Source: Microbacter margulisiae
GTDB taxonomy: Bacteria; Bacteroidota; Bacteroidia; Bacteroidales; Paludibacteraceae
Length of the DNA stretch: 64,000 nt
NCBI RefSeq assembly: GCF_014192515.1
Contig: NZ_JACHYB010000001.1
Coordinates: 1,302,001-1,366,000 of the forward strand
Direction of reading: 5' to 3'
The notes under the pieces: model-generated
What the model was told of the DNA's origin: nothing
The model's database searches: none
What the model saw: only the letters and a program-made list of their open reading frames with translations
In this document: in pieces, positions 2,723 to 60,531 of the stretch
Position numbering within the stretch: position 1 is the first letter of the stretch
Layout of the letters: each line of letters opens with the position of its first letter
Program-made: the position numbers and the translations under genes

Positions 2723-4038
2723 CACTAGTGTCCCATTAAAATTGGGGCGAATTAAAAATCAAATAAACTTGGCACATTAAGCCTAAAACGATCTTTGTCA
2801 TTTTGGAATTTAGTTCTCTCGAAGAGGTCCCGAAGATGAGTTTTATCAGTTAATGACATACTCAATATCTGCAAAATCTCATATGTACTACTGTCAAGTT
2901 GCATGTCCTTTTGGATTATTGCCACCAGACAATATGTGCATATAGCTACGTAGATTTGAATCCGAACAGCGTTTTCAGTTGTACCCCAAAATTTCTTTAT
3001 TTTCAGATGTTGTTTCAACCATTTGAAGAACAGCTCAACTTGCCAGCGGTTCTTGTAAAGTTCGGCAACATGAAGAGCTGAAATATGCATCGCATTGGTT
3101 AAGAAAACAAACTCACGTTCTTGTTCTTCATCCCAGTATCTGACCAAACGAAGAGTTCCCGGATAGTATTGACTTGGATAAAATCCCGTCAATTCAATCA
3201 TCACATCTGAAAGCACATTCTCAGGTAACCTGCGTCTCCATTTGATGGATTTGTATTGCAGGTTCTTCTTGGCTCTAACAACAAAGAAAGCTTCTATCTG
3301 ATGAATCTTATACAGCATTTTGAAGCTGTTGTACGCTCTGTCAAATATATAATATGATCCTGATTCATACGGAATTTCTTTCATTGCCTTTGAGTCATGT
3401 ACTGACGCTTCAGTGATATGGAAAAATGCTGGTATCTGTGTTTCTACATCGTATAATGTATGTACTTTGATCCCACCTTTCTTCTTACGGAACTTCACCC
3501 ACCAGAAGGCTGAAAGACATAAGTCAATCGTTGTTGAATCGAAAGCGTAGACATTACCACCAAGTTTGAAAATGTCAGAAACTCGTTTCTCTCTCGCGTC
3601 GTTTATCAGGTAGTAAGCATACTCTTCAAAAATGTGATAATCTCTGTCTTGATTGGCTCTTGCCAGAGATGATTTTGAAACATTTTTGCCCAAACCCAAA
3701 TGGTAAGATTTGGAGTGATGAGCATCAAGTGCGACAATCAAATCTCATAAACTTTCTCGGTTGGACAGTTGTCCGAACATCAGAGCAAGTAATTGATTCC
3801 AGCATTTAAAATGCGTTACATATTTGTCGCCATCGAACTTGCGAACAATGTAGTTGAACTTATTCCGATCCAAGAAAGAGGCTAACTGAGCGAAAACGTA
3901 TTTTTCCTTATGCATTTACAAATCTGTTTAAGTATTGCAAAAGTGCAAATTGAAATCCGTTTAATCGAAAAAACCCAGTAATGAACTAAATTTCAAATAT
4001 TTCAAAGAGCTTCCTTAGATTTTAATGGGACAGCAATG
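2723..4038 (-). mobile_element. IS4-family insertion sequence, copy 1 (degenerate)
   Basis: A 1316-bp element with imperfect terminal inverted repeats: left end CACTAGTGTCCCATTAAAA, right end (reverse complement) CATTGCTGTCCCATTAAAA. It is flanked by a 9-bp direct duplication, TTTCTTTTT, at 2714-2722 and 4039-4047. One transposase gene on the - strand fills the element. It is a diverged relative of the two later copies (54193 and 59213), with the same ends, length class and duplication size. The transposase carries an in-frame stop. Confidence 0.93.
2752..3915 (-). pseudogene. IS4-family transposase with an in-frame stop
   Basis: Read from the ATG at 3915 the gene has the same 387-codon length as the intact transposases at 54230 and 59250. 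A TGA at 3745-3747 replaces the arginine of their RRSLRDLA segment (here ESL-stop-DLIVAL). The remaining 329 codons are open from a TTG at 3741. The N-terminal DUF4372-like segment (MHKEKYVFAQLASFLD) is separated from the DDE core, which keeps FDSTTIDLCL, YIFDRAYN and the Y-x2-R-x3-E-x6-K signature (YKNRWQVELFFKWLK). Without readthrough this copy should make no full transposase. Intact copies elsewhere could still move it in trans. Confidence 0.9.
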
Positions 4039-6392: not shown

Positions 6393-6433
6393 ATTAGTTC
6401 TGGATTGATTTATTGTCGAGATATGAAACGAAC

Positions 6434-6450
6434 ATGTAAATTACTTACAT
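6434..6450. promoter_or_regulatory. Palindrome ATGTAA-N5-TTACAT, candidate operator
   Basis: The 6-bp arms ATGTAA and TTACAT are separated by ATTAC. The same arms with the same 5-nt spacing recur at 17830-17845 (part of 17828-17846) upstream of another glycosidase gene. It lies in the 275-bp gap between GH51 and GH2, 25 bp before the leader repeat at 6476. A regulator-binding site is an inference from the recurrence. An RNA hairpin is the alternative. Confidence 0.45.
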
Positions 6451-6475
6451 CCAAGATTATGAGAATAGTTGACAT

Positions 6476-6520
6476 GTGAGTTCCATACGACCTTTAAAAA
6501 TAAATTATTCACGTATGAAA
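6476..6520 (+). repeat. 45-bp leader repeat, copy A (not joined to a long gene)
   Basis: Runs from GTGAGTTC to CGTATGAAA and matches copy B at 9273-9317 at 44 of 45 positions. In copy B the closing ATGAAA is the start of a real gene. Here it opens only a 7-codon frame (MKNFRKL, stop at 6535), and the next gene starts at 6668. Copy A therefore looks like an orphaned 5' leader, left behind by a lost gene or serving as an upstream leader of the GH2 mRNA. A TAATTTTG promoter-like -7 match lies at 6536-6543, without a clear -33 partner. Confidence 0.7.
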
Positions 6521-6667
6521 AATTTTCGTAAGCTCTAATTTTGTATGTATAAATTACCAAATTACAATTGTTTGTCTGAATTGACTTTATGAGACTCCCA
6601 ATATGAGTAACATAACCAATTTAGTTATTATCTGTTTAAGAGATATACGGAAGAAATATACTTTATC

Positions 6668-9100
6668 ATGAAACAAACATCTTATCTCAAGTTTTTGCTA
6701 TTAATCCCAATTTTCTTTGGATGGAATAATAATCATTGTGTTGCACAATTTACAGGTCATGTTCAACGCTATACGATGGATTATGATTGGGAATTCATAT
6801 TGGGGGATATTCCGAATGCAGAAAGCGCACGGTTTAATGACACTGCATGGGAACATCTTGATGTGCCGCATGACTGGAGCATTGGCGAAAAATGGAATAA
6901 AGACAATCCATCGGGAGAAGCCGGAGGTTATGCAACAATAGGCATTGGATGGTATCGAAAAACGTTCGTGGTTCCCGACAGCTTAAAAGGGAAACAAGTA
7001 TTTCTTACTTTCGACGGGGTGATGAATCATGCAGATGTGTGGTTAAATGGGCAAAAAGTGGGACATAAGGACTATGGCTATATCGGCTTTCAATGTGATT
7101 TGACACCATGGATCAGAGCCGGCAAAAAAAACACAATAGCGGTGCGCGTCGATAATTTAAAACAAGCAAGCCGTTGGTACACAGGTAGCGGAATTTATCG
7201 GCACGTTTGGTTGACAGTCATGGGACAAATCCATGTAGAACATTCGGGCACATTTTTCACCACATTGAACATATCAAGCAACAAAGCCCTTGTAAAAGGA
7301 GAAACCACGCTTCATAACAGCAACGATCAGGCAAAGAAAGCCATGCTTGATACTAGACTTATTGATCCGTCAGGAAAAACAGTTGCCGAAAAAATATCAC
7401 AAATAACCATTCCCGCACATAGTTCATCGACAATAAATCAATTTTTCAATGTGCACTCTCCTCAACTTTGGTCACAACAAACCCCTTCTTTATACAAAGC
7501 TATCAGTACGGTAATTTCCGATCAGCAAACGGAAGATAAATATCAAACACTCCTGGGGATTCGCAGCATTAAATGGGATGTACGGCATGGATTTCAATTA
7601 AACGGCAAACGAATCGTTATTAAAGGAGTCTGTTTGCATCACGATCTGGGAGCTTTGGGTGCTGCGGCTTACGATGAAGCTATTAAGCACCGGTTATTGA
7701 TATTAAAAAGCATGGATATTAATGCCGTTCGACTAAGTCACAATCCATATTCACCCGAAATGTTGCAAATGTGCGATAGTCTTGGCATTCTCGTTTTCGA
7801 TGAGTGTTTCGACAAATGGTATGGCTTCGAACCAAATGGAACAGGCTGGAAAGAAGACCTAACATCGTTTGTGAAACGTGATAGAAATCATCCAAGCGTC
7901 ATTATCTGGAGCGTAGGAAATGAAATGGTTCCACACATGTATTCGCATTGGGGCGCCCGCATCTTCGAATCCATGAAGGCAACCGTGCATTCACTCGACA
8001 TGACCCGTCCGGTAACAGCAGCGTTGCATCCGGTACGGACAAGCGATGGAAAAAGAGATGCACCGCTGGCTGAAATTGCTCAATACATGGATGTGATCAG
8101 TATGAACTACCAAACAAAATTCTATCCGCGTGATCACGAACAACATCCGAATCAGGTTTTATTAGGAAGCGAAACACATGTACATCAACTCAATCTGAAT
8201 GAAAGCAATCAGCCAAATGATGGAACAGGGAATCAATGGTTCGGGACACGTAACTATGTTACAAACAAATACTATAATTATGTCGGAGGACAATTTATCT
8301 GGGCAGGATTCGATTATTTGGGCGAAGCAGGAGCATGGCCAAGCAAAGGGAATAGAAAAAATCTGATAGAAACCACAGGTTTCAGAAAACCTTTCTCCTA
8401 TTATATACAAAGTTTGTACACCGATAGTTCATTGGTGAGAATTGCTGTTGCTAATCCGGCGTTCGCAAGCGACAAAAGAAAGTATGACAACTTCGATTGG
8501 CTGGCGTTGAATTCAGATTGGAACTGGGCACCTCAAAATGACAGCCTTCGCGTTTATACATTCACCAACGCGCCGGAAGTGGAACTGTCGCTCAACGGAA
8601 AAACATTAGGAAAAAAGAAATTAATCGATTATCCTAATCGGATTATTACGTGGGAAGTCCCTAATATACCAGGCGCTTTGAAAGCAATTGCTTTCAAAGG
8701 CACAAAACAAGTAGCAGCAAACGAATTGAAAACAACCGGAGTAGCTACGAGGCTACAACTCATTGCCGACAGAACAACATTGAGCGCAAATGGCGAAGAT
8801 GTATCGTTCATTGAAGTGAAAGCCGTTGATTCAAATGGCAACCGCGTTCCTGAAAATGGACAACTAATACGATTTAGCATTGAAGGAGCCGGCATCATTG
8901 CAGGCGTTGATAACGGCGATTTAGACAGCCGCGAAGCATTTCAATCAAACCATCGGGAGTTGAGAGATGGACGCTGTTTAGTTATAGTTCGCTCTAACCG
9001 GAAAGCAGGTAAAATCATATTAACCGCCACTGCCGAAGGATTAACCCAAGCTTCCGTCGAACTGAATGCGCAGCAAAACAAAACGATTCCAACTTTATGA
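6668..9100 (+). CDS. GH2 beta-galactosidase-type glycosidase
   Basis: Probably an exo-beta-galactosidase acting on pectic galactan or arabinogalactan oligosaccharides in the periplasm. The 810-residue protein has a signal peptide (about 1-26), a GH2 sugar-binding jelly roll (about 35-190, VPHDWS and GIGWYRKTF), an immunoglobulin-like domain, a TIM barrel (about 300-590), a DUF4982-like domain and a C-terminal Ig-like domain (about 700-800). The acid/base is E419 in WSVGNEM and the nucleophile E502 in LLGSETH, so the active site is complete. Beta-galactosidase is the commonest activity for this domain order. Beta-glucuronidase or another GH2 activity cannot be excluded. Confidence 0.88.
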   Translation: MKQTSYLKFLLLIPIFFGWNNNHCVAQFTGHVQRYTMDYDWEFILGDIPNAESARFNDTAWEHLDVPHDWSIGEKWNKDNPSGEAGGYATIGIGWYRKTFVVPDSLKGKQVFLTFDGVMNHADVWLNGQKVGHKDYGYIGFQCDLTPWIRAGKKNTIAVRVDNLKQASRWYTGSGIYRHVWLTVMGQIHVEHSGTFFTTLNISSNKALVKGETTLHNSNDQAKKAMLDTRLIDPSGKTVAEKISQITIPAHSSSTINQFFNVHSPQLWSQQTPSLYKAISTVISDQQTEDKYQTLLGIRSIKWDVRHGFQLNGKRIVIKGVCLHHDLGALGAAAYDEAIKHRLLILKSMDINAVRLSHNPYSPEMLQMCDSLGILVFDECFDKWYGFEPNGTGWKEDLTSFVKRDRNHPSVIIWSVGNEMVPHMYSHWGARIFESMKATVHSLDMTRPVTAALHPVRTSDGKRDAPLAEIAQYMDVISMNYQTKFYPRDHEQHPNQVLLGSETHVHQLNLNESNQPNDGTGNQWFGTRNYVTNKYYNYVGGQFIWAGFDYLGEAGAWPSKGNRKNLIETTGFRKPFSYYIQSLYTDSSLVRIAVANPAFASDKRKYDNFDWLALNSDWNWAPQNDSLRVYTFTNAPEVELSLNGKTLGKKKLIDYPNRIITWEVPNIPGALKAIAFKGTKQVAANELKTTGVATRLQLIADRTTLSANGEDVSFIEVKAVDSNGNRVPENGQLIRFSIEGAGIIAGVDNGDLDSREAFQSNHRELRDGRCLVIVRSNRKAGKIILTATAEGLTQASVELNAQQNKTIPTL

Positions 9101-9272
9101 TAATTATTTACACAAGCATAAAAATATATGACTTGAAATTAAGACCAGAAAGGAGTTATAGAAAATAAAACAGCTAAACAGGTTATTAAACAGAGTACAA
9201 ACACAAATAAAACACTCATAAGATGAAACGAACACGACAAGCAAAACTTGACATACAAGGGAATGCTTATGC

Positions 9273-9317
9273 GTGAGTTACATACGACCTTTAAAAATAA
9301 ATTATTCACGTATGAAA
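9273..9317 (+). repeat. 45-bp leader repeat, copy B (overlaps the CE12-GH28 start)
   Basis: Differs from copy A (6476-6520) only at the eighth base (A instead of C). It ends in the ATGAAA that starts the CE12-GH28 gene. In both copies an upstream ATGAAACGAACA opens a short frame that ends at the TGA inside GTGAGTT: MKRT plus 14 codons for A, MKRT plus 13 codons for B. Weaker relatives lie before the genes at 17911 and 49925. The conservation suggests a shared 5' leader, but its role is unknown. Confidence 0.7.
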
Positions 9318-11273
9318 ATTAAATTGATTTCGCTGCTGACAATAGGATTTACGTTGTTGGTAATTATGGCCTTCAAAACTAATCACAAGCCCACCCTTTA
9401 CATTATCGGCGATTCAACCATAGCTAAAGATGGAGGCCTAATAGAAGGTTGGGGAGTTCCAATAGCGACATTCTTTGATACGGCAAAAATCGTTGTAGAA
9501 AACGACGCACGAGGAGGACGCAGCAGTCGATCATTCCGATATGAAGGATTATGGCAGAAAGTGGTCAATAAGTTACAACCTGGCGATTATGTTTTAATGC
9601 AATTCGGTCATAATGATGGAGGAAAAATAGATGGAGACAAATATCGTGCATCCTTAAAAGGTATCGGAGATGAAGAACAAGAAATCACCCGTCCGGATGG
9701 GAGTAAAGAAATGGTACATACATATGGATGGTATATGCGGAAATACATTGACGAAGCAAAAGCCAAAGGCGCTATTCCCATTGTATGTTCGCCGATACCG
9801 CGAAATGAATGGAAAGATGGCAAAGTGATCCGTAATAAAACCAATTACGGTGGATGGGCAAGAGAAGTCGCCCATACGGAAGGTGCTTATTTTATTGATC
9901 TTAATACGTTAATAGCCAATAAATATGATCAGATGGGAGCTGAGGTCGTAAAACAATTGTTCCCTCAGGATCACACACATACTTCTCCTACAGGAGCGAC
10001 GCTAAACGCCAGAATGGTTGTCAAAGGCATTCGGCATTTAAAAGATTGCCCGTTAAAACAATTTTTGCGAAAGGAGGATTCATCTTTTCTAATCACCAAT
10101 TATGGTGCTGTAGGAGATGGAACAACACTCAACACAAAAGCAATACAAAACACAATCGATTGGTGTGCAGCAGAAGGTGGAGGGACGGTAATCGTCCCAT
10201 CCGGAATTTTTCTAAGCGGAGCCATTTTTCTAAAGCAAGGCGTCAATCTGATGGTTGAAAAAAACGGGGTGCTCAAGGGCACTACAAATCTGGCAGATTA
10301 TCCTTTAGTAGCAACCCGTTGGGAAGGAACAGAATGTCAATGGACTTCTGCTTTTATCAATGTATTCAATATGACAGGATTTCACCTGAGCGGGGAAGGA
10401 ACTATTGACGGGTCGGGTGAAGCCTGGGTACAGAATGGGATCATTGCTTCAAAACAACCCGGATACAGCAAGTTAAGCGACAGGGAACGTTATGGAAGAC
10501 CACGCCTTATTGCCATTCAGGATTGCAAAAATGTCACCATCTCAGGATTGCATTTGCACAATGAAGCCTGCTGGTGTCTGTTTATTCTCTATTCTCAAAA
10601 CATTACCGTGCAAAATCTGACCATTCACGCCGAACACAACATCCCCATGTCCGACGGCATTGATATTGACTCAAGCAAAAAGATACATGTCAATAATTGC
10701 GACATTGATGACGACGATGATTGCATTTCTATTAAATCAGGGAAAGATGCAGAAGGAAGACGTATCGGGAGAGCATCACAAGATATTCTTATCGAGAAAT
10801 GTACATTTCGTTATGGCGGCGGCGGCGTGGCGATGGGAAGTGAAATGTCAGGAGGAATCAAAAATGTAGAAATTCACGATTGCGTCGCAGAAGACGGTAA
10901 CTGGGCACCAATCCGATTCAAGTCACAACCCAGCCGGGGAGGTGTTGTAGAAAACATAACCTATCGCAACATTATCTTGAAAAACACCCGTAATGCATTC
11001 GACTTCAACATGGCATGGCGGATGGTTCATCCTAAGCCGGCATCAAATCCATTGCCCGTAATACGCAACATCCATATCATCAATGTATCCGGAACGGTTC
11101 AATCGGTAGGCGACATGCACGGCCTGGCAGGAAGTCCGATAAGCAATGTGGAATTTAAAAACTGTAACATTACCGCTCAAACAGGATTTATTTTAGATCA
11201 CGTAAAGAATATAAATCTCTCAGGACTCACGTTGAAAGTAGCCAAAGGAGAATCCATAATCCGTAAAAATTAA
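9312..11273 (+). CDS. Bifunctional CE12 rhamnogalacturonan acetylesterase - GH28 glycosidase
   Basis: Predicted to remove acetyl groups from galacturonic acid and cut the adjacent galacturonide linkage. I prefer the ATG at 9312 (653 residues) over the GTG at 9273 because it gives a normal N-terminal hydrophobic segment (KLISLLTIGFTLLVIMAF). Residues about 25-245 form an SGNH esterase: GDST with S35, MQFGHND and D220-x2-H223 in QDHTHTS. Residues about 255-650 form a right-handed beta-helix GH28 with SDGIDIDSS, DDDDDCISIKSG and PIRFKSQ. The usual GH28 motif GHG before the IGSE strand is GGGGVAMGSE here, so the conserved histidine is missing. The next gene follows after 8 bp. Confidence 0.88.
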   Translation: MKIKLISLLTIGFTLLVIMAFKTNHKPTLYIIGDSTIAKDGGLIEGWGVPIATFFDTAKIVVENDARGGRSSRSFRYEGLWQKVVNKLQPGDYVLMQFGHNDGGKIDGDKYRASLKGIGDEEQEITRPDGSKEMVHTYGWYMRKYIDEAKAKGAIPIVCSPIPRNEWKDGKVIRNKTNYGGWAREVAHTEGAYFIDLNTLIANKYDQMGAEVVKQLFPQDHTHTSPTGATLNARMVVKGIRHLKDCPLKQFLRKEDSSFLITNYGAVGDGTTLNTKAIQNTIDWCAAEGGGTVIVPSGIFLSGAIFLKQGVNLMVEKNGVLKGTTNLADYPLVATRWEGTECQWTSAFINVFNMTGFHLSGEGTIDGSGEAWVQNGIIASKQPGYSKLSDRERYGRPRLIAIQDCKNVTISGLHLHNEACWCLFILYSQNITVQNLTIHAEHNIPMSDGIDIDSSKKIHVNNCDIDDDDDCISIKSGKDAEGRRIGRASQDILIEKCTFRYGGGGVAMGSEMSGGIKNVEIHDCVAEDGNWAPIRFKSQPSRGGVVENITYRNIILKNTRNAFDFNMAWRMVHPKPASNPLPVIRNIHIINVSGTVQSVGDMHGLAGSPISNVEFKNCNITAQTGFILDHVKNINLSGLTLKVAKGESIIRKN

Positions 11274-17806: not shown

Positions 17807-17827
17807 TAATAGAAATTATAAAATGAA

Positions 17828-17846
17828 GATGTAAATAATTTACATC
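17828..17846. promoter_or_regulatory. Perfect palindrome GATGTAAAT-A-ATTTACATC, candidate operator
   Basis: It has 9-bp arms around one central base. Its core, ATGTAA-N5-TTACAT, matches the element at 6434-6450 in arms and spacing. It sits just downstream of the predicted transcription start, a position suited to a repressor site or a small 5' hairpin. No regulator gene is in the window to pair with it. Confidence 0.55.
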
Positions 17847-17910
17847 AAAAGATGTGAGCATAGTGATATGCGACTCTTCGTAGAACCCTTAAAATCAAAA
17901 TTCCTATCGT

Positions 17911-20049
17911 ATGAAAACATGCGTTTACATTTTGGCTGTAGGACTGGTATCATTATCCGGTACGATGAGTTGCTATGGCTCAAGAATTAATCGCAAAGCG
18001 CTGGTAAAAAGGCATGAACCTATCATTCGTCAAATAGATTCCTTATCATCATTATCGGTAGGAAACGGCCATTTTGCCTTTACTGTTGACCCAACAGGAT
18101 TACAAACATTTCCCACATTTTATAAAAATGGAGTTCCATTAGGAACCGAATCCGATTGGGGTTGGCATAGTTTTCCGAACCCTCACAAATACACTTTTTC
18201 CGAAACATTACGGAATTATGACTTTCGTGGATGGAAAGAGCCTTACTCCGTTCAATTTAATGAAAAAGGACGCCAACAGGATGCAGCCAACTGGTTTCGG
18301 ATTAATCCACATCGATTAAACTTAGGCAATGTCGGGTTTGATTTCACGAATTCCAAGGGAGAAGCACTAACGATAAATGACATACATCATATTCATCAAA
18401 AACTGCATTTGTGGGATGGTTACATTCAGAGCGATTATGTCATCAACGGCAAACCAGTAGATGTTCAAACCGTATGTAATCCTTATAAAGATATCATCTC
18501 CGCTCGGATCACTTCTCCTTCATTACATTCACAATCGATCAAAATCCATTTTCGGTTTGCCTATCCAAGCGGTAATTCTTTTGACGACGGATGTAGTTGG
18601 AATGAACCGAATAAACACATCACTTTAATTATAGCACAAGGGGCACACTTTGCTATTTTTAAGCGGCAATTAGACAGCACGACTTATTATGTTGCCATTC
18701 AATGGAAAGGTAAGGCAACACTATCCAAAAAAGCGGCTCATTTTTTTATTCTCATGCCTGACAGCAGGGCAGATTCGTTTTCATTTTCGTGTTCGTTCAC
18801 GAATTATTATTCAAAACTGCCTTTATCAACATTTTATGCAAACAAAATGGCGGCTAAAAAATATTGGAACCAGTTTTGGAAGAAAGGAGCCGCAGTTGAT
18901 TTCAGAAAATGTAAAGACTTAAGAGCAAGAGAATTAGAAAGAAGAGTAGTGCTCTCCCAATACCTAACAGCCATACAATGCGCCGGCAACACGCCGCCTC
19001 AGGAAATAGGGTTAACGTACAACAGTTGGTATGGTAAATTCCATTTGGAAATGTATTGGTGGCACGAAGTCCATTTTGCATTATGGAACCGGATTAATTT
19101 GCTAAAACGCAGTTTTGACTGGTACAATACAGCCTATACAAATGCCAAAAGAATTGCCGAAAGGCAAGGATTCAAAGGCGTCAGATGGATGAAAATGACA
19201 GATCCGTCCGCCCGTGAATCTCCGTCAAATGTTGGATCTTTTTTAGTTTGGCAGCAACCCCATGTCATTTACGTAGCCGAATTAATCTATCGGGACCATC
19301 CTTCATTAGCCATCTTAAACCGTTACAAAAAATTGGTATTTGCAACTGCCGACTTCATGGCATCATTTGCAACTTTCAATAAAAAGACAGGATATTATGA
19401 TTTAAAAGGGCTTATTCCTGCACAAGAGACACTGAAAGCAAGCACAACGGTTGATCCGCCCTTAGAATTATCCTATTGGTATTATGCGCTAAACACGGCA
19501 CAAAAATGGAGAGAGCGATGCGGTATGCCACGGAATCCGGAATGGGATAAGGTCTTACAACATTTACCTCCTTTGGCATATAAAGACAGTTTATATCTTG
19601 CTGCAGCATCTGCCGCACAAACATACAGCGATCCACGATTTACATCAGACCATCCGGCTGTTTTGGGAGCATTGGGCATGTTACCTCTTTCGCCTTTAGT
19701 GCAACCGGCAATCATGCGAAAAACATTAGACTGGGTCATGACACATTGGCTTTGGGCTACCACATGGGGTTGGGATTACCCTTTAATAGCGATGACGGCA
19801 ACACGCTTGGGAGAACCTGAAAAAGCGATAGACGCTTTACTAATGAATCAACAAAAAAATAGATATCTTATTAATGGTCATAACTATCAGGATCAACGGC
19901 TTCGTATCTATTTGCCCGGGAATGGGGGGTTACTTACGGCAATTGCCATGATGTGTGCCGGCTGGGATGGCTGTACACAAAAAAATCCCGGATTCCCTAA
20001 AAATGGCAAATGGGATGTACAATGGGAAGGATTAAAAAAGATACCATAG
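17911..20049 (+). CDS. Probable (alpha/alpha)6-barrel glycosidase, family uncertain
   Basis: A 712-residue secreted protein with a signal peptide (about 1-24). The N-terminal beta-rich half contains LSVGNGHFAFTVDPTGLQTFP, an opening seen in clan GH-L-type proteins related to GH65 and GH95. The C-terminal half (about 330-700) looks like an alpha/alpha toroid and has GLTYNSWYGKFHLEMYWWHE and WVMTHWLWATTWGWDYP, rich in aromatic and acidic residues like a sugar-binding cleft. A glutamate or aspartate in FHLEMYWWHE could be catalytic, but this is inference. I cannot assign a CAZy family or substrate. The gene has its own apparent control region and lies just before the double susC/susD block, which supports a role on an RG-I or arabinogalactan sugar. 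Confidence 0.6.
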   Translation: MKTCVYILAVGLVSLSGTMSCYGSRINRKALVKRHEPIIRQIDSLSSLSVGNGHFAFTVDPTGLQTFPTFYKNGVPLGTESDWGWHSFPNPHKYTFSETLRNYDFRGWKEPYSVQFNEKGRQQDAANWFRINPHRLNLGNVGFDFTNSKGEALTINDIHHIHQKLHLWDGYIQSDYVINGKPVDVQTVCNPYKDIISARITSPSLHSQSIKIHFRFAYPSGNSFDDGCSWNEPNKHITLIIAQGAHFAIFKRQLDSTTYYVAIQWKGKATLSKKAAHFFILMPDSRADSFSFSCSFTNYYSKLPLSTFYANKMAAKKYWNQFWKKGAAVDFRKCKDLRARELERRVVLSQYLTAIQCAGNTPPQEIGLTYNSWYGKFHLEMYWWHEVHFALWNRINLLKRSFDWYNTAYTNAKRIAERQGFKGVRWMKMTDPSARESPSNVGSFLVWQQPHVIYVAELIYRDHPSLAILNRYKKLVFATADFMASFATFNKKTGYYDLKGLIPAQETLKASTTVDPPLELSYWYYALNTAQKWRERCGMPRNPEWDKVLQHLPPLAYKDSLYLAAASAAQTYSDPRFTSDHPAVLGALGMLPLSPLVQPAIMRKTLDWVMTHWLWATTWGWDYPLIAMTATRLGEPEKAIDALLMNQQKNRYLINGHNYQDQRLRIYLPGNGGLLTAIAMMCAGWDGCTQKNPGFPKNGKWDVQWEGLKKIP

Positions 20050-41190: not shown

Positions 41191-41340
41191 ATTGACAATG
41201 GACAGTTGACAGTTGACAATGAAAATCTGGAAGTTAAAGAAGATGACAACCTCAAAGTAGTTTAGTAGCTAGTAGACGGTAGTATAGTAGAAATCTGGAA
41301 ATCTGAAGTTAAGAAGATACAGGAAGGTCGGAAGTTAAAG
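41191..41340. repeat. Tract with a 7-nt period, tract 1
   Basis: Successive 7-mers repeat with drift: ATTGACA, ATGGACA, GTTGACA, GTTGACA from 41191, then units of the type NNGTAGN and AAATCTG. The same unit types recur at 46743-46881. It lies between GH106 and the IS3 element and has no coding capacity that I can recognise. The function of such Bacteroidetes intergenic tracts is unknown. Confidence 0.7.
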
Positions 41341-46742: not shown

Positions 46743-46881
46743 CAGTAGACAGTAGTTGGTAGACGGTAGATAGTAGGAATCTAAGAATCTGAATATTAGA
46801 AGATGGGAAGTTAAAGAAGATGTCAACTGCAAGGTAGTTTAGTAGATGGTAGTATAGTAGAAATCTGAAAATCTGAAATTT
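46743..46881. repeat. Tract with a 7-nt period, tract 3
   Basis: From 46743 successive units read CAGTAGA, CAGTAGT, TGGTAGA, CGGTAGA, TAGTAGG, with a second run from 46833. Units AAATCTG and GGAAGTT are shared with tract 1. It fills the first part of the 405-bp gap before the GH28 gene at 47108. A short hairpin (TCCCT / AGGGA, 46890-46901) follows it and is followed by CTTTT. Confidence 0.7.
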
Positions 46882-49796: not shown

Positions 49797-49924
49797 AATC
49801 AATCAAAAACTATAAGGCATCTCACAAAGGAACAGTATATATGAAACGAGCCTAAAATAACTCATGTTCAAGTAGATGATTGTTTTGGCGAGTTTCATAC
49901 ATCCATAGTGTAAAAAATAAACAT

Positions 49925-50896
49925 ATGAAATCACAGTCGACAGACACAAAATTTATATGGATCTGCTTATTTGCATTTGTCCTCTCCCTGCCTTTGGCAT
50001 CTGCCAAAAGAAAAGGCAAAACGGCCTATTTGTTTTCCTATTTTAGTGGCAATGGAGAAGACGGGTTACATTTAGCCTATAGTTATGACGGATTAAAATG
50101 GCTTCCGCTTAATCATGGGAAATCCTTTTTGAAACCACTGGTTGGAAAGGACAGCCTGATACGTGATCCCAGTTTATTATTAGGCAGGGATGGCATATTT
50201 CATGTAGTCTGGACAACAGGATGGTGGGACAAAGGATTTGGCCATGCATCGTCCAAAGATTTGATTCATTGGTCGAAAGAGCAGTATCTTCCTGTAATGT
50301 ACTATAAACCTTTAGCTAAAAATACGTGGGCACCGGAACTCTTTTATGATCATAAATCAAAAACATATTACATCTTCTGGGCATCTACTGTGCCGGGGTT
50401 ACATCCGGAAACGCCTGACTCGGCCACTGAGAAAGGCTTAAACCACCGGTTATATTTTACCACCACAAAAGATTTTATCCATTATAGTCCTACAAAACTA
50501 TTCTTCAACCCTGCATTTAGCGTCATCGACGGCGCTATGCTTTATTGGAAAGGAAAATACTGGTTATTCATAAAGAATGAAATGCTCAGGCCTGTGCAAA
50601 AAAATATCCGGGTCACTTGTACAAGATCCCTGAACAAAGGGTTCCCGATAAACGTTTCGCCTCCTATCACCGGCCATTATTGGGCAGAAGGCCCTTCTCC
50701 CCTATTAATAGGGAAATACGTATATGTCTATTTTGATAAATACCGGGAACATACCTACGGCGCAGTACGCTCAACCGATGGAATACACTGGCAAAACGTT
50801 TCTTCATTTGTATCTTTCCCGGCAGGAACACGGCACGGAACAGCGCTACGTGTGCCGGTTACAGTGTTAAACCGCCTAATCTCATTGACTAGGTAA
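49925..50896 (+). CDS. GH43-family glycosidase (arabinosidase, galactosidase or xylosidase type)
   Basis: A 323-residue secreted five-bladed beta-propeller enzyme. The ATG at 49925 gives a signal peptide (FIWICLFAFVLSLPLASA). The frame from 49880 contains a leader-like stretch similar to the repeats at 6476 and 9273. The three acids of the family are seen as D in SLIRDPSLLL (base), D in SVIDGAMLY and E in YWAEGPSPLL (acid). WAPELFYD is a further GH43 hallmark. Its activity cannot be narrowed beyond alpha-arabinofuranose, beta-galactose or beta-xylose side chains. Confidence 0.87.
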   Translation: MKSQSTDTKFIWICLFAFVLSLPLASAKRKGKTAYLFSYFSGNGEDGLHLAYSYDGLKWLPLNHGKSFLKPLVGKDSLIRDPSLLLGRDGIFHVVWTTGWWDKGFGHASSKDLIHWSKEQYLPVMYYKPLAKNTWAPELFYDHKSKTYYIFWASTVPGLHPETPDSATEKGLNHRLYFTTTKDFIHYSPTKLFFNPAFSVIDGAMLYWKGKYWLFIKNEMLRPVQKNIRVTCTRSLNKGFPINVSPPITGHYWAEGPSPLLIGKYVYVYFDKYREHTYGAVRSTDGIHWQNVSSFVSFPAGTRHGTALRVPVTVLNRLISLTR

Positions 50897-53829: not shown

Positions 53830-54192
53830 CTTGTATTCAACATCAACTCAAGTCTAAGATGATCATATTTGCATCAGCACCAATTCAATTATCATAAAAT
53901 CAACAAATTATACACATAGTCATATATACAGACTAACCTTGAATGATTCAACAATGATCCGGTTGATACATATGCCGGATAATCTATCTTTTCGATAAAA
54001 AAGAGCATCACATCAATTCAATCTGTATCTATTAAATCCATTGGCAACAGAGCAATCCAAATACAGAAAAATAAAATTACAGGAATCATTTGTATACAAG
54101 AATCTTGCTCATCTTACCGGACAAATACCTGATAATATGCACTATGACAATATAGAAAAGAAATAAGCACAAGACAAATATGAAAATTAGAT
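53830..54192. other. 363-bp gap between GH35 and an IS copy
   Basis: AT-rich DNA with no gene or strong hairpin that I can identify. It ends at the 9-bp target duplication AAATTAGAT (54184-54192). An ATG at 54180 opens a frame, MKIR, that was cut by the IS; rejoining it with the right flank gives only 9 codons. Confidence 0.5.
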
Positions 54193-55511
54193 CACTAGTG
54201 TCCACTAAAAAAACGGCACTGTATAAATATTAAAAAGCAAATAAACTTGGTTCACTTGAACCGCATCGTTCATTGAAATTGTTGAAGTTAGATTTGTTGA
54301 GCAAATCATTTATGTTGGCTTTGTCCGTTAGTGACATGCTGAGAATCTGAAGCATTTCGTAGATGGAGCATTCCATCTTCAAGTCATGATGCACAATAGC
54401 TACCAAGCAGTAGGCGGTAATAGCCGAGTAAATCTGGATCCTGACAGCATTCTCAGTTACGCCCCAAAACTTTTGGATATTGAGGTGTTGCTTCATCCAC
54501 TTGAAAAACAGCTCGATCTGCCATCTGTTCTTGTAAAGCAGCACGACTTGCAAAGCATCAAGACTAAAAGCATTGGTTAGGAATGTAAACACTCGGTCTT
54601 GCTCTTCGTCGTAGAAGACAATTCTTCGTATGGGCTTCGGATAATGCCTTTCGCTCATGTAACCAGTGAATGTCACCACGGAATCTGAGAGGATGTTTTT
54701 CGGCATCCTTCTCTTCCATCTGACTGCCTTGCACTGTAGATTGTTCTTGGCTCTGACCACAAATAATGACCTGATTTCGTTGATTCTAAACAATCGTTTG
54801 AAATCGTTGTACCCGCGGTCAAACACATAAAAAGATCCTGGTTCATAGGGAATCACATCCATCGCGTTTACGTCATTTACCGCAGCAGGAGTGATATGGA
54901 AGAACATTGGGATCTGAGTTTCCAGGTCAAACAGGGTATGGATTTTAACTCCACCTTTTGTCTTTCTGAAACGAGCCCATTGATAAATGTTCATACATAA
55001 GTCAATGGTCGTTGAATCAAAGGCATAGACTTTACCTCCAAGCTTGAAGATGTTGTCCATACGTTTTGATTGAGCTTTGCCAACCATGTAATAGGCAAAC
55101 TCTTCAAAAATGCGATAGTCCCGATTGGTATTTGCCTTGGAAAGATTGCTTAGCTTGACATCACTGCCAAAACCCAGATGATATCCTTTACCCCTATGCG
55201 CACCGATAGCCATCGCCAAATCTCTCAGACTCCTTCTGTTGCAAAGTTGTCCGAACATGAGAACAAGCAGCTGATTCCAACAGGTAAAAGACTTGATATA
55301 GCGGTTTCCTTGGTGCTTGTCTACAATGTGCCTGAATTTATCGGCATTAAGAAACTCGACTAATTGGGCGAAAACGAACTTCTCTTTATGCATATCGTAT
55401 TGAATATCAATACAAAGATAAATTGAAATCGTCGCACCCTTTAAAGCGCTGTAACTATCTAACTTTCAATATTTTCAAAGATCTTTTGCAATTTTTTAGT
55501 GGACACTAGTG
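54193..55511 (-). mobile_element. IS4-family insertion sequence, copy 2 (intact)
   Basis: A 1319-bp element with a perfect terminal inverted repeat (CACTAGTGTCCACTAAAA at both ends) and a 9-bp duplication AAATTAGAT at 54184-54192 and 55512-55520. It encodes one transposase on the - strand, identical in protein sequence to copy 3. Its right end reads ACACTAGTG, while copies 1 and 3 end in AATG. It lies in an intergenic region and disrupts no gene that I can see. Confidence 0.95.
54230..55393 (-). CDS. IS4-family transposase
   Basis: A 387-residue DDE transposase with an N-terminal DUF4372-like domain (MHKEKFVFAQLVEFLNADKF) and an RNase-H-like core. Key features are FDSTTIDLCM (first D), YVFDRGYNDF (second D) and the YREK signature Y-x2-R-x3-E-x6-K (YKNRWQIELFFKWMK) that defines IS4 transposases. 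No stop or frameshift is seen, and it is identical to the copy at 59250, so it is probably active. Confidence 0.95.
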   Translation of the reverse strand: MHKEKFVFAQLVEFLNADKFRHIVDKHQGNRYIKSFTCWNQLLVLMFGQLCNRRSLRDLAMAIGAHRGKGYHLGFGSDVKLSNLSKANTNRDYRIFEEFAYYMVGKAQSKRMDNIFKLGGKVYAFDSTTIDLCMNIYQWARFRKTKGGVKIHTLFDLETQIPMFFHITPAAVNDVNAMDVIPYEPGSFYVFDRGYNDFKRLFRINEIRSLFVVRAKNNLQCKAVRWKRRMPKNILSDSVVTFTGYMSERHYPKPIRRIVFYDEEQDRVFTFLTNAFSLDALQVVLLYKNRWQIELFFKWMKQHLNIQKFWGVTENAVRIQIYSAITAYCLVAIVHHDLKMECSIYEMLQILSMSLTDKANINDLLNKSNFNNFNERCGSSEPSLFAF

Positions 55512-56659: not shown

Positions 56660-59212
56660 ATGAAACGACTACACAAAGAATCGTTTAGGCAAAAGTTGCA
56701 ACACATTGTGCTTTTGCCAGGTACCAAATGGGTTTGTTGTTTTTTAATAACATTCCTGTTAGGAGGACAGCTACTGACGGCTGCACCAAGCAATGCAACC
56801 CAAAGTCAATCTCAGCAATCTGAAGGATCAAGAATTTCAGGTAAGGTGACCGATGACCAGGGAGAACCTTTAATTGGGGTTACTATCGCCTGTAAAGGAA
56901 CTTCCCGGGGAACTATTACTGATGTTAATGGAAAATACAGTTTAGAAGTTCGTCCTTCAGACGTATTAGTGGTATCATATGTCGGATATAAAAGACAAAT
57001 AATACCTTACACAGGACAGTTAGAGTTAAACATTAAGATGCTTCCGGACATAAAATCATTAAATGAAGTAGTGGTAGTTGGTTATGGTACTCAAAAAGCC
57101 AAAAACATTACAGGTTCTATTGCTACGGTTAACATGCAAAAAGCAACAGAGCTACCTGTTGGCAATCTTACAGAAGCATTAAGCGGACAAATTGCTGGTC
57201 TATCAGTAAATGATGGAAGTTCTCGCCCAGGCGATAACACATCGACCATGCAAATTCGCCAAGTCTTTAATTTTTCAAAAAACCAAGGCACGCCTCTTCC
57301 CTTAGTTGTTATTGATGGGGTAATTCAAATTGATCCAACAAGTGGATTACCCACATTAGATCAGTTTAATATGCTTGATCCTTCTGAAATTCAAAGTATT
57401 TCAATATTGCGCGATGCAAGTGCTGCTATTTATGGTGCACGTGGGACACAAGGGGTTATTATTGTCACAACAAAGCATGGCCAAATAGGTGCTCCTAAAA
57501 TTTCTTACTCGGCAAAATTCGAAATAGATAATGCTGTAAGTTTTGAAAAAACATTGAATGCGTATCAATACGGAGTCTTTGCCAATAGTTTCTTGCAAGC
57601 AAGCGGGGTAACTAATCCAACCAATCTTTATTCAACAGATGAGTTGAATCAAATGAAAACATTGAATTATAACTGGCTCAAGGAAGCTTGGAAACCTGCC
57701 GGGCTTATGCAACATTCGATCAATGTAAGCGGTGGTAGCCAAAAAGCAACTTATTTTGTAGGAGCATCTTATTATACACAAGGAGCTAATCTGGAAAACC
57801 AAAATTATAACAGATATACTTTCAGAGCAGGGACAGATGCTGAAATCGCTTCTAATTTACATTTGAACGGATCTGTATCCGCCAATAGCGGCAAACAAAC
57901 TCAATCATTCACGAAGGTCGTTAGCGCAATAAATGATGGTAGTTATGGGTCTTACGCAGGAGGGGAACAAGCTGACTATGGTTATTTGCTTCACATGCCA
58001 CAATATATTCCCTGGTCTTATAATGTGAATGGGACAACCCAATATGTGTCTCCCGCCCTGAGCCCTGCCAAAGTATCAGGCAATGCAACATCAGCAAATG
58101 CAATTGCAGACTGGAACTATTTTGCCATATTAAATAGCGGATCAGCTCAAACAAACACATCCAATAGCTACACAGCTAATTTCACATTACGTTACGATAT
58201 TCCTTATGTAAAAGGATTATCAGTATCAGGACAATATGCCCGCACTTATGAAACCGATAATAACGAACAAGACGCCATGCCGTTTACGTTAGCATTGGCT
58301 ACAAACACCAATACACTGGATAATCACTTATACACATCCAGCACAACCTGGAAAGTAGCTCAAAACAATAAAAATTCACGCGTCGTTTATAGCAACCAAT
58401 TGAGCGAAAACGAACAAATGAACTTCTTTATCAACTATGCAGGTTCGTTTGGGAAAAACAACATTTCCGCCATGGCAGCGGCTGAACGTTCAACCCAAAG
58501 TGTCCAAAACAACTACTACGAATATGATAATCCTTTAGCAGGTGCCTATAATGGAGCCAGCTCTTCTGCAGGCACACTGGATGTTTCTAATAGTTATACA
58601 ACAAAAACTTCCTTAGGAACGCTCTCTTATTTTGGACGTGTCAACTATAACTATGCAGATAAGTATTTAGCTCAATTTATTTTACGTGCCGATGCTTCCA
58701 CAAAATTTGCCCCGGCAAACTATTGGGGGCTCTTCCCGACACTTTCGTTAGGATGGATTGCATCGGAAGAACCCTGGTTCAGAAAAGAATTCGGATGGGT
58801 GGATTACTTCAAGGTACGTGCATCGGTTGGAGAAACCGGGAAAGATAACATTACAGCATACGAGTGGGAACAGTTGTACACTTATAATGCAAATAAAGGG
58901 TTAGGCTTTGGGTCAAACGGGGGTTCGCTAGTAAGCGGCTTAACAACCAATGTAACCCCTACACCAAACTTACGTTGGGACTCAACCGTAAAATATGATT
59001 TAGGATTTGATGGGAACGTATTAAACAACAGATTATCATTTTCTTTAGACGGATATTTTGATCGTAACACCAATCTGTTAACCCAAATGGCAAGCGCAGC
59101 AAATGTTCCTATTACAGCCGGTGGTGCTTATGCAGAACAAAACTATGCTAATCTTAATGACTGGGGAGCAGAAATATCAATCAACTGGAAAGATAAAATC
59201 GGTAAAGTAAAT
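56660..59212 (+). pseudogene. Third SusC-like transporter, N-terminal part, split by IS copy 3
   Basis: The first 851 codons of a SusC protein: a long N-terminal signal region (about 1-42, CCFLITFLLGGQLLTAAP), a carboxypeptidase-like beta-sandwich (about 57-135, GKVTDDQGEPLIGVTIACKG), a TonB box region (NEVVVVGYGTQ), a plug (SILRDASAAIYGARGTQG) and most of the barrel. The element at 59213 sits after INWKDKIGKVN. Without the IS the frame continues into 60541 for a total of 1138 residues. As it stands the product adds one histidine from the IS and stops, so the barrel cannot close and import through this pair should fail. The rest of the sequence is intact, so the loss looks recent. Confidence 0.95.
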
Positions 59213-60531
59213 CACTAGTGTCCACTAAAAAAACGGCACTGTATAAATATTAAAAAGCAAATAAACTTGGTTCACTTGAACCGCATCGTTCATTGAAATT
59301 GTTGAAGTTAGATTTGTTGAGCAAATCATTTATGTTGGCTTTGTCCGTTAGTGACATGCTGAGAATCTGAAGCATTTCGTAGATGGAGCATTCCATCTTC
59401 AAGTCATGATGCACAATAGCTACCAAGCAGTAGGCGGTAATAGCCGAGTAAATCTGGATCCTGACAGCATTCTCAGTTACGCCCCAAAACTTTTGGATAT
59501 TGAGGTGTTGCTTCATCCACTTGAAAAACAGCTCGATCTGCCATCTGTTCTTGTAAAGCAGCACGACTTGCAAAGCATCAAGACTAAAAGCATTGGTTAG
59601 GAATGTAAACACTCGGTCTTGCTCTTCGTCGTAGAAGACAATTCTTCGTATGGGCTTCGGATAATGCCTTTCGCTCATGTAACCAGTGAATGTCACCACG
59701 GAATCTGAGAGGATGTTTTTCGGCATCCTTCTCTTCCATCTGACTGCCTTGCACTGTAGATTGTTCTTGGCTCTGACCACAAATAATGACCTGATTTCGT
59801 TGATTCTAAACAATCGTTTGAAATCGTTGTACCCGCGGTCAAACACATAAAAAGATCCTGGTTCATAGGGAATCACATCCATCGCGTTTACGTCATTTAC
59901 CGCAGCAGGAGTGATATGGAAGAACATTGGGATCTGAGTTTCCAGGTCAAACAGGGTATGGATTTTAACTCCACCTTTTGTCTTTCTGAAACGAGCCCAT
60001 TGATAAATGTTCATACATAAGTCAATGGTCGTTGAATCAAAGGCATAGACTTTACCTCCAAGCTTGAAGATGTTGTCCATACGTTTTGATTGAGCTTTGC
60101 CAACCATGTAATAGGCAAACTCTTCAAAAATGCGATAGTCCCGATTGGTATTTGCCTTGGAAAGATTGCTTAGCTTGACATCACTGCCAAAACCCAGATG
60201 ATATCCTTTACCCCTATGCGCACCGATAGCCATCGCCAAATCTCTCAGACTCCTTCTGTTGCAAAGTTGTCCGAACATGAGAACAAGCAGCTGATTCCAA
60301 CAGGTAAAAGACTTGATATAGCGGTTTCCTTGGTGCTTGTCTACAATGTGCCTGAATTTATCGGCATTAAGAAACTCGACTAATTGGGCGAAAACGAACT
60401 TCTCTTTATGCATATCGTATTGAATATCAATACAAAGATAAATTGAAATCGTCGCACCCTTTAAAGCGCTGTAACTATCTAACTTTCAATATTTTCAAAG
60501 ATCTTTTGCAATTTTTTAGTGGACACCAATG
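59213..60531 (-). mobile_element. IS4-family insertion sequence, copy 3 (inside susC)
   Basis: 1319 bp, same orientation as copy 2 and matching it except for the right terminal bases (CACCAATG instead of CACTAGTG). The 9-bp target duplication AAAGTAAAT lies at 59204-59212 and 60532-60540. Because its duplication differs from that of copy 2, the two copies inserted independently and are not the ends of one composite transposon move. The right end supplies an ATG (60529) in frame with the rest of susC. Confidence 0.96.
59250..60413 (-). CDS. IS4-family transposase
   Basis: 387 residues, identical in protein sequence to the transposase at 54230, with DUF4372-like N terminus, DDE core and YREK signature intact. 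Two identical copies 5 kb apart indicate recent transposition. They also provide direct repeats for deletion of the intervening susC control region and N-terminal part. Confidence 0.95.
   Translation of the reverse strand: MHKEKFVFAQLVEFLNADKFRHIVDKHQGNRYIKSFTCWNQLLVLMFGQLCNRRSLRDLAMAIGAHRGKGYHLGFGSDVKLSNLSKANTNRDYRIFEEFAYYMVGKAQSKRMDNIFKLGGKVYAFDSTTIDLCMNIYQWARFRKTKGGVKIHTLFDLETQIPMFFHITPAAVNDVNAMDVIPYEPGSFYVFDRGYNDFKRLFRINEIRSLFVVRAKNNLQCKAVRWKRRMPKNILSDSVVTFTGYMSERHYPKPIRRIVFYDEEQDRVFTFLTNAFSLDALQVVLLYKNRWQIELFFKWMKQHLNIQKFWGVTENAVRIQIYSAITAYCLVAIVHHDLKMECSIYEMLQILSMSLTDKANINDLLNKSNFNNFNERCGSSEPSLFAF

Follow-up and report, generated by a model that had tools for sequence, protein, structure and literature searches.

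In a 64,000-nucleotide stretch of the genome of Microbacter margulisiae (contig NZ_JACHYB010000001.1, positions 1,302,001 to 1,366,000; hereafter the window), a 45-bp repeat was found to be the 3′ half of an element of about 90 bp that belongs to a genome-wide family. We consider it probable that this is a non-autonomous, site-specific mobile element which re-creates the hexamer ATGAAA at its target. The analysis established the repeat family, sites that lack the element, a target, an asymmetry between the two ends, covariation in a hairpin structure, patchy bursts of copies and regenerated start codons.

A preliminary description of the window had reported two nearly identical 45-bp sequences, and these were confirmed at 6476-6520 and 9273-9317 (copies A and B; 44 of 45 bases agree). 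An ungapped scan of both strands of the window with copy B as query gave no other place with at least 27 matches. The genome-wide search suggested in the same description was carried out on the 3.56-Mb genome (G000), where a 42-base motif with up to three mismatches occurred at the two window places only and a reversed-pattern control gave none. A looser 15-base pattern was present at 27 places. About half of those read had a ATGAAACGA(G/A)C-like segment approximately 50 bases upstream together with an ATGAAA at the right end, and the remainder resembled chance matches. The upstream segment earlier noted as common to both repeats, ATGAAACGAAC, is the left end of the same element, at 6423 and 9223. 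Copies were further collected with covariance models trained on G000 copies, and G000 scores are therefore partly set by construction. The first model, R1, had one helix arm misplaced by three columns and served only the first genome scan (69 matches at E ≤ 10, of which 65 were read); it was replaced by the corrected model R2, which identified 46 copies in G000 at E ≤ 0.001. With this model the diverged relatives that had been proposed in front of the genes at 17911 and 49925 were recovered (E 1.5e-5 and 1.6e-9). The ATGAAA at both ends, the hairpin between them, the genome-wide family and the mosaic nature of copy B described below extend the preliminary description.

The element has the layout ATGAAAC-GA-GC...(variable)...GC-GA-GTTCCAT-NNG-ACC-(~20, A/T-rich)-CNN-ATGAAA and is usually 85-100 bp in size. 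The 65 matches read in G000 are 49-100 bases long, excluding the shared six bases. Short forms of 69 and 74 nt (L295, L308) and 62 nt (L458) were observed, as well as long forms of 138 nt (L339) and 122 nt (L482). In helix P1, ATG.AAC pairs with GTT.CAT and GC.. with ..GC around the GA/GA positions, while helix P2 is formed by CATNNG and CNNATG; P1 and P2 both use one CAT. Pairing was assessed in two alignments. A3 consists of 43 copies aligned with MAFFT and was not fitted to the structure, though its copies had been found with a model that contains the structure. It comprises 40 of 50 listed loci and three window copies, with more than one row from each of G001, G033 and G034; L167-L170, L176, L178, L179, L185, L319 (a duplicate of L173) and L339 (longer) were omitted. 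At the two free P2 positions the pairs were AT 12, CG 18, GC 10, TA 1 and CG 21, TA 18, AT 2, respectively, with 2/43 non-Watson-Crick cells at each, and all six P2 pairs were Watson-Crick in 35 of the 43 copies. Across the whole structure, 79 cells had changed on both sides, compared with 25.4 (standard deviation 5.0) in shuffled and 4-13 in slid alignments. The own-genome alignment A2, for which 41 of the first 47 R2 matches were chosen and 38 aligned (L041, L059, L061, L062, L074 and L082 were left out at choice; L060, L067 and L081 at alignment), gave 52 such cells against 22.8 (standard deviation 3.1) shuffled and 7-18 slid.

Column 4/64 of A3 holds A.C in 39 of 43 copies, which corresponds to a G.T pair on the other strand. 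When the element is joined end to end, P1 and P2 are predicted by folding to fuse into one continuous hairpin, 18 bp long in G055 and continuous at the column 4/64 position there. The fold z of this joined-end hairpin was -5.5 for the top and -7.2 for the bottom strand in G055, and -1.9 and -3.4, respectively, in G013. The G.T pair at column 4/64 and the continuity of the joined-end hairpin at this position hint that the bottom strand is the active one. Wobble counts elsewhere favour neither strand.

As judged from the sequences, the target is ATGAA/A (the slash marks the insertion point), the left hexamer being derived from the host and the right ATGAA from the element. In G055 the left hexamer of 43 copies was ATGAAA in 36, AAGAAA in four, and TTGAAA, CTGAAA and TAGAAA in one each, and the right hexamer was ATGAAA in all 43. 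The 36 copies in G013 had ATGAAA (35) or AAGAAA (1) to the left and ATGAAA (34) or ATGAAT (2) to the right. For the 23 copies in G060, we found ATGAAA (20), TTGAAA (1), ATGAAT (1) and ATGCAA (1) on the left and ATGAAA (18), ATGAAT (4) and ACGAAT (1) on the right. From this difference in variation, the left hexamer can be assigned to the host and the right one to the element up to GAA, and the last base of the right hexamer probably comes from the host. GAA alone is common to both ends and was invariant in the 79 G013 and G055 copies read; such a constant 3-bp overlap is indistinguishable from a 3-bp duplication. A T stood before the left hexamer in 31/36 G013 and 32/43 G055 copies, compared with 21% of 772 ATGAAA sites in 20 stretches of G055 (p 9e-14 for the G055 excess). 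The two ends, AC-GAGC and CNN-ATGAA, are not inverted repeats. The right end reads CNNATGAA, and joined ends would read CNNATGAA followed by ACGAGC. One of the G055 copies with AAGAAA on the left (L265) is positioned four codons inside a lipoprotein-like frame, which restarts at the ATG of the element as MKRLFKK...; the host frame could start at a GTG (VSLTKKRLFKK...).

Sites without the element were found for several copies. The copy B site is uninterrupted in front of the same gene at two other loci (L030 and L031), which read ...CATAAG ATGAAAATTAAATTG..., while the window has 89 extra bases; the copy B locus and these orthologous sites are 81% identical over 233 nt across the junction. In G055, the sequence broken by the copy in L272 has an uninterrupted paralogue in L273. 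This target falls, out of phase, within a frame of 63 codons and is thus not a start codon. A young copy in G000 (L044) is located directly before an old copy within a repeat, and its relative L081 reads ...TTATTAC ATGAAA... with no young copy; L060, L068, L088 and L094 align likewise. Tandem copies that overlap by the shared 6 bp were present in G000, G060, G202, G354, G435 and G706. The word mobile in the preliminary description is supported by element-free sites, near-identical bursts within single genomes and tandem copies. The repeat around L044, seen also at L060, L068, L081, L088 and L094, exceeds 300 bp and carries TTCCCTTATT/AATAAGGGAA near the borders of the old element copy. An AATAAGG palindrome similar to that of this repeat adjoins the REP-associated tyrosine transposase (RAYT; REP, repetitive extragenic palindromic) gene of G060 (L246).

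The copies and related features of the window are summarized in Table 1. Copies A and B have hairpins of different type that are 70% alike, and tails that are 98% identical. The hairpin of copy B is 94% identical to that of L048, whose tail is only 76% like the copy B tail. Copy B is thus a mosaic, its hairpin being of the L048 type and its tail of the copy A type, which accounts for matching tails on unlike hairpins; exchange or conversion of tails between A and B, which are 2.8 kb apart, has likely occurred on top of mobility. If A and B alone had undergone a recent local duplication, of the kind that the preliminary description had named as a refuting outcome, or a gene conversion, this would fit the 98% identity of the tails beside a hairpin nearest to another copy. 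It leaves the copies in other genomes and at tens of further loci, as well as the exact site lacking copy B, unexplained; as the whole explanation it is refuted on these points and hardly credible. Several hairpin types with exchangeable tails, as in modular recombination among elements, were observed in L038, L042, L048 and other G000 copies. Between copy A and the GH2 gene at 6668 there are 147 bases, and copy A is followed only by a 7-codon frame, as described earlier. The gene behind copy B has one of its nearest relatives (82% identity) in a Paludibacter metagenome-assembled genome.

Table 1. Element copies and associated features in the window.
Feature	Position	Strand	Basis
Copy A (intergenic), with ATGAAA at both ends	6423..6520	+	R2 E 1.2e-14, copy in R2 training set
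3′ tail of copy A (the 45-bp repeat)	6476..6520	+	Hairpin 3′ foot, guide-like CATACG, AT-rich loop, CGTATGAAA
GH2 gene between copies A and B; own ATG, no element at its start	6668..9100	+	Pfam
Copy B, exactly at the start codon of gene 9312	9223..9317	+	R2 E 1.7e-11, copy in training set
Left ATGAAA of copy B, host-derived target and native gene start	9223..9228	+	CATAAG/ATGAAAATTAAATTG in L030 and L031; end asymmetry in other genomes
Right ATGAAA of copy B, start codon now from the element end	9312..9317	+	Sequence; comparison with L030/L031
GDSL esterase and GH28 (pectin-type) protein behind copy B	9312..11273	+	Pfam; relatives
Diverged copy C, ending at the start codon of gene 17911 (no Pfam match)	17818..17916	+	R2 E 1.5e-5, outside training set
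Copy D, ending at the start codon of the GH43-like gene 49925	49841..49930	+	R2 E 1.6e-9, copy in training set; Pfam

The element family is spread through many bacteria related to Paludibacter. Matches were identified in 13 of 61 genomes of a family sample that included G000 (E ≤ 0.001), in 76 of 393 genomes of an order sample (E ≤ 1e-4) and in 25 of 395 genomes of a class sample that included other orders (E ≤ 1e-5). In the order and class scans at most 10 candidates were scored per genome, so that copy numbers are lower bounds and some genomes were possibly missed. The distribution is patchy, with 67 matches in G055 (up to 68 candidates scored) compared with 5 in its genus-mate G028, and 37 in G013 compared with none in its genus-mate G043. 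The places scored in G055 (40 of 105 from a first look) were 97-100% identical. Similarity searches of plasmids and of phages, each with one window copy, gave no match. In a viral collection the exact long pattern was absent, and a short pattern was found in 62 stretches, only one of which (L458) fits the model. This 62-nt miniature element (6976-7037, minus strand) is located in an IMG/VR contig directly before a Phage_cement_2 gene, among frames that by eye resemble tailed-phage structural genes, a possible vehicle. Rfam gave no gathering match in the window, and a relaxed Rfam scan of seven loci gave 12 matches, all in L188 and none on its element. No description of the element was found in Rfam or in searches of the openly accessible literature aimed at it. 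A larger, gene-carrying version was not detected with left- and right-end patterns in G000 among the part of the matches read, nor in a whole-element search of G055, G028 and G038 (40 of 105 places scored in G055). Recurrent ATGAAACCAGCTTGT matches in G000 belong to one repeated coding sequence that is unrelated to the element; the six copies read are near-identical and have a transposase-like look (L107, L108, L112, L113, L120 and L123).

Many copies end at the start of a gene. A copy was counted as such when a frame of at least 60 codons, or one open past 40, began at its right ATG. By this rule 38/49 copies in G000 (the first 51 of the 65 matches, L055 and L060 being dropped as they have no right ATG), 12/20 in G013 and 9/21 in G055 were at gene starts. 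With a 50-codon rule and all fetched copies, the counts were 24/36 in G013, 18/43 in G055 and 17/22 in G060 (one G060 copy without a right ATG was dropped). For comparison, non-coding ATGAAA sites opened a frame by the 50-codon rule and crude gene calls at 89/267 places in G055 stretches and 66/188 in G000 stretches; a further 505 and 485 ATGAAA sites, respectively, were inside predicted genes. The share at gene starts did not differ from this baseline in G055 (p 0.30) and was higher in G000 (p 1e-7, 60-codon counts against the 50-codon baseline), while G060 was above the G000 baseline (p 3e-4). We attribute the excess to insertion at tolerated sites followed by better survival and detection of copies at gene starts, which by itself does not explain G013. 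The term leader module used in the preliminary description holds for copies inserted at gene starts. Its restriction to pectin genes was too narrow. The G000 genes behind elements include tatC, dapF (diaminopimelate epimerase) and genes for a ribose isomerase, a cupin, a phosphoglycerate mutase, a carbon-nitrogen hydrolase and POR, with enolase added by a weak match. No downstream function was common to the genes examined; the 11 loci taken for Pfam analysis were picked for a housekeeping-like look and are no measure of carbohydrate-gene enrichment.

These numbers bear on the possibility that the element is a selected cis-regulatory RNA leader, either a riboswitch or a start-codon-sequestering switch copied to several genes, in which the shared CAT frees or hides the AUG. 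Such a leader would agree with the excess at gene starts in G000 and in the G013 burst, with two helices competing for one CAT, and with the 32 G.U compared with 20 A.C found in diverged copies when column 4 is excluded. Against it stand the gene-start share in G055, the L272 insertion inside an open frame, the lack of a common downstream function and the absence of any Rfam match to an element. The pairing in old copies also speaks against it. The 19 more diverged rows of A2, which also score lower, had P2 paired in 83/113 cells compared with 82.4 in shuffled columns, the outer part of P1 in 43/56 compared with 43.6 and the middle part in 47/54 compared with 46.7; only the inner P1 arm (52/57 compared with 43.9) was above the shuffles, an excess that can be explained by several hairpin types. 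In the 19 better-scoring A2 rows, P2 paired in 105/114 cells. Moreover, all 43 A3 copies have a C at position -3 within P2, while initiation in Bacteroidetes favours A at -3 and little structure (PMC6847099), so that a C at -3 and a paired AUG would be poor for initiation. Because the start-codon helix shows no excess pairing in diverged copies, and in view of the C at -3 and the paired AUG, the data argue that the structure serves mobility rather than a leader function for the host, and selection as a leader, as proposed in the preliminary description, is not supported for the structure. As the main interpretation, a riboswitch or leader was rejected on the Rfam results, the downstream functions and the decay of pairing, and we regard it as improbable.

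For a mobile element the following route can be proposed. Insertion occurs in one orientation into ATGAA/A, and host bases as far as GAA remain to the left. The element begins with AC-GAGC and ends with ...CNN-ATGAA, and the last base of the host target and the downstream sequence are joined to the ATGAA carried by the element. Since the host provides ATGAAA and the element ATGAA, insertion at a gene start regenerates the start codon; as the sequences show, the old one is split off and an identical new one supplied, leaving the predicted protein unchanged. The ends may be read by pairing to the shared internal GTTCCATNNG, the left junction through ATG-AAC and the right end through CNNATG; the pairing to GTTCCATNNG itself is shown by covariation. 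We infer an excised circle, in which the joined ends would form the continuous hairpin, and the element may transpose as a folded single strand through a trans-acting enzyme. Where a copy has landed at a gene start, it would be retained as a 5′ leader and decay slowly. An HUH/Y1-type reaction like that of IS200/IS605 is the best-rated model, held at somewhat less than even confidence, and a tyrosine recombinase acting on the folded hairpin is second and doubtful. Only tentatively do we extend this to a class-wide family of folded-strand elements without a transposase of their own kind, integrated into ATGAAA by a host enzyme (e.g., chromosome-dimer recombinases), in which both the target and the right end correspond to the way genes most often begin and the selfish element, by rebuilding the start codon, avoids harm while delivering 5′ leaders.

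Several observations count against the proposed mobility or its details. No enzyme that could mobilise the element was identified. Y1_Tnp was present in 24 of the 26 genomes covered, unrelated to copy number, and six Y1 loci read by eye carry other palindromes. The preference for T before the target is absent in G060 (7/23). Even the young burst in G013 shows an excess at gene starts (24/36; p 5e-5 relative to the G055 baseline), a result not expected from insertion at any tolerated site, and the model rewards ATGAAA ends, so that decayed copies away from gene starts are under-counted. On the top strand the guide is 3′ of the hairpin, unlike in IS608, and 5′ only on the other strand. In G000, 36 copies run with the leading strand and 20 against it (9 further ones lie in ambiguous zones, p 0.04), and in G055 the numbers are 9-11 with and 17-19 against; replication strands were inferred from the GC skew of sampled stretches, and the trends are weak and of opposite sign in the two genomes. 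The circle and its excision, finally, are steps that we infer.

The burst genomes G013, G055 and G060 have one Y1_Tnp each, beside other palindromes. Among 30 Y1 loci fetched there were two strong element matches, both at one G000 locus, and five weak ones at E 0.68-8.3; no link between a Y1/RAYT enzyme and the element was found in these 26 genomes and 30 loci. Frames between three close copy pairs, read by eye only, contained no obvious recombinase. Reverse transcriptase (PF00078) was present in 10 of 22 genomes, including G000, G013 and G060, and absent from the other 12, which include G055 and three element-free genomes. Tandem-GA motifs are known from structured RNA. Together with the sense-strand location in leaders, the lack of target duplication beyond GAA and the reverse transcriptases in G000, G033, G060, G013, G028, G411, G141 and G244, this would suit insertion of a reverse-transcribed leader RNA into ATGAAA sites. 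With no PF00078 in G055, the genome with the most young copies seen, or in the element-rich G062, G202, G117, G314, G417, G437 and G158, such an RNA-mediated route is very improbable.

An integron-like reaction was also considered, in which a minimal attC-type cassette (R box ATGAAAC, unpaired GA, L box, variable end, L box, GA, GTTCCAT) is recombined as a folded strand by a tyrosine recombinase into secondary sites. The joined ends form a continuous hairpin, the A.C/G.T position in 39/43 copies distinguishes the strands, and IntI-like recombinases score best (E 1e-27 to 1e-39) in G000, G034, G411, G062, G024, G043 and G202. Integron crossover needs an AAC triplet in the partner. The order of parts, AAC then G with GTT on the other arm, matches that given for attC in PMC2727003, where crossover is placed between C and A of the AAC box, whereas the host sites ATGAA/A lack this C. 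None of 30 genomes reached the cut-off for integron integrase (TIGR02249), G024 and G043 have recombinases of the higher-scoring group without element matches in the family scan, and the best recombinase matches of the burst genomes G013, G055 and G060 (E ~1e-22) are outside that group. We consider an integron-like reaction unlikely. The G000 member of the group (contig C1, 1882706-1883506; L349) is an IntI-like tyrosine recombinase in a frame of ~577 codons, with counterparts in G034, G411, G062, G024 and G202.

If a mobile element is the correct interpretation, it has taken the place of start codons and 5′ leaders in many of these bacteria and left the protein unchanged, which bears on start-site annotation, leader-based regulation and promoter mapping. 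Its insertion reaction would be compact, site-specific and directly testable, with an end code that rests on base pairing (CNN/NNG), and the element would show how a selfish sequence can do almost no harm where genes are densely packed. Other repeats were also observed in the window. Two minus-strand frames of 387 amino acids have 3′ parts (54176-54475 and 59196-59495) that are 98% identical over 300 nt, and a frame at 3517-3642 is related to them; these are possibly transposase copies. In addition, GTAGTATAGTAG-type intergenic repeats are common to 41229-41310 and 46764-46880.

Among known systems, IS200/IS605 elements have subterminal hairpins at both ends with a guide 5′ of each hairpin foot (PMC6006769). 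The present element shares with them a fixed short target kept beside the element without classical target duplication, as seen in filled and uninterrupted site pairs and in the end asymmetry, an end that mimics the target, a hairpin with guide-like pairing to both ends and a single orientation. It differs in its size of ~90 bp, in having one main hairpin for both ends and a single shared guide, which would lie 5′ of the foot only with the bottom strand active, and in a target, ATGAAA, that is longer than a tetranucleotide. No linked tnpA was found in the genomes and loci covered, and a bias to the lagging-strand template, as expected of IS200/IS605, was not consistent between G000 and G055. 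Like attC sites, it has the R box-spacer-L box-variable tip architecture, outer arms with AAC/GTT at their inner edge and a recombination point in the outer arm; unlike them, its crossover is at ATGAA/A and not within a GTT/AAC triplet common to the target, which host sites lack, it carries no cargo, and no integrase exceeded the cut-off. REP sequences and REPINs, mobilised by RAYT (TnpA-REP), are similar in being small, non-coding and high in copy number, with a mismatched hairpin, genome-specific bursts and an enzyme presumed to act in trans. The element differs from these in its strict orientation, precise target and regenerated start codons and by having no GTAG-type tag (none was seen 5′ of the hairpin in the consensus of 43 aligned copies), and the RAYTs in these genomes adjoin other repeats. 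Correia, RUP, ERIC and Rickettsia palindromic elements are described as miniature inverted-repeat transposable elements (MITEs) or small intergenic repeats in PMC2229807; as reported there, such non-autonomous miniature elements can end up in transcripts and gene fusions, which is a further likeness. Ends that are not inverted repeats and the invariant GAA do not fit a DDE-type MITE, and the element differs from MITEs in having neither terminal inverted repeats nor a variable target duplication and in re-creating the start codon.

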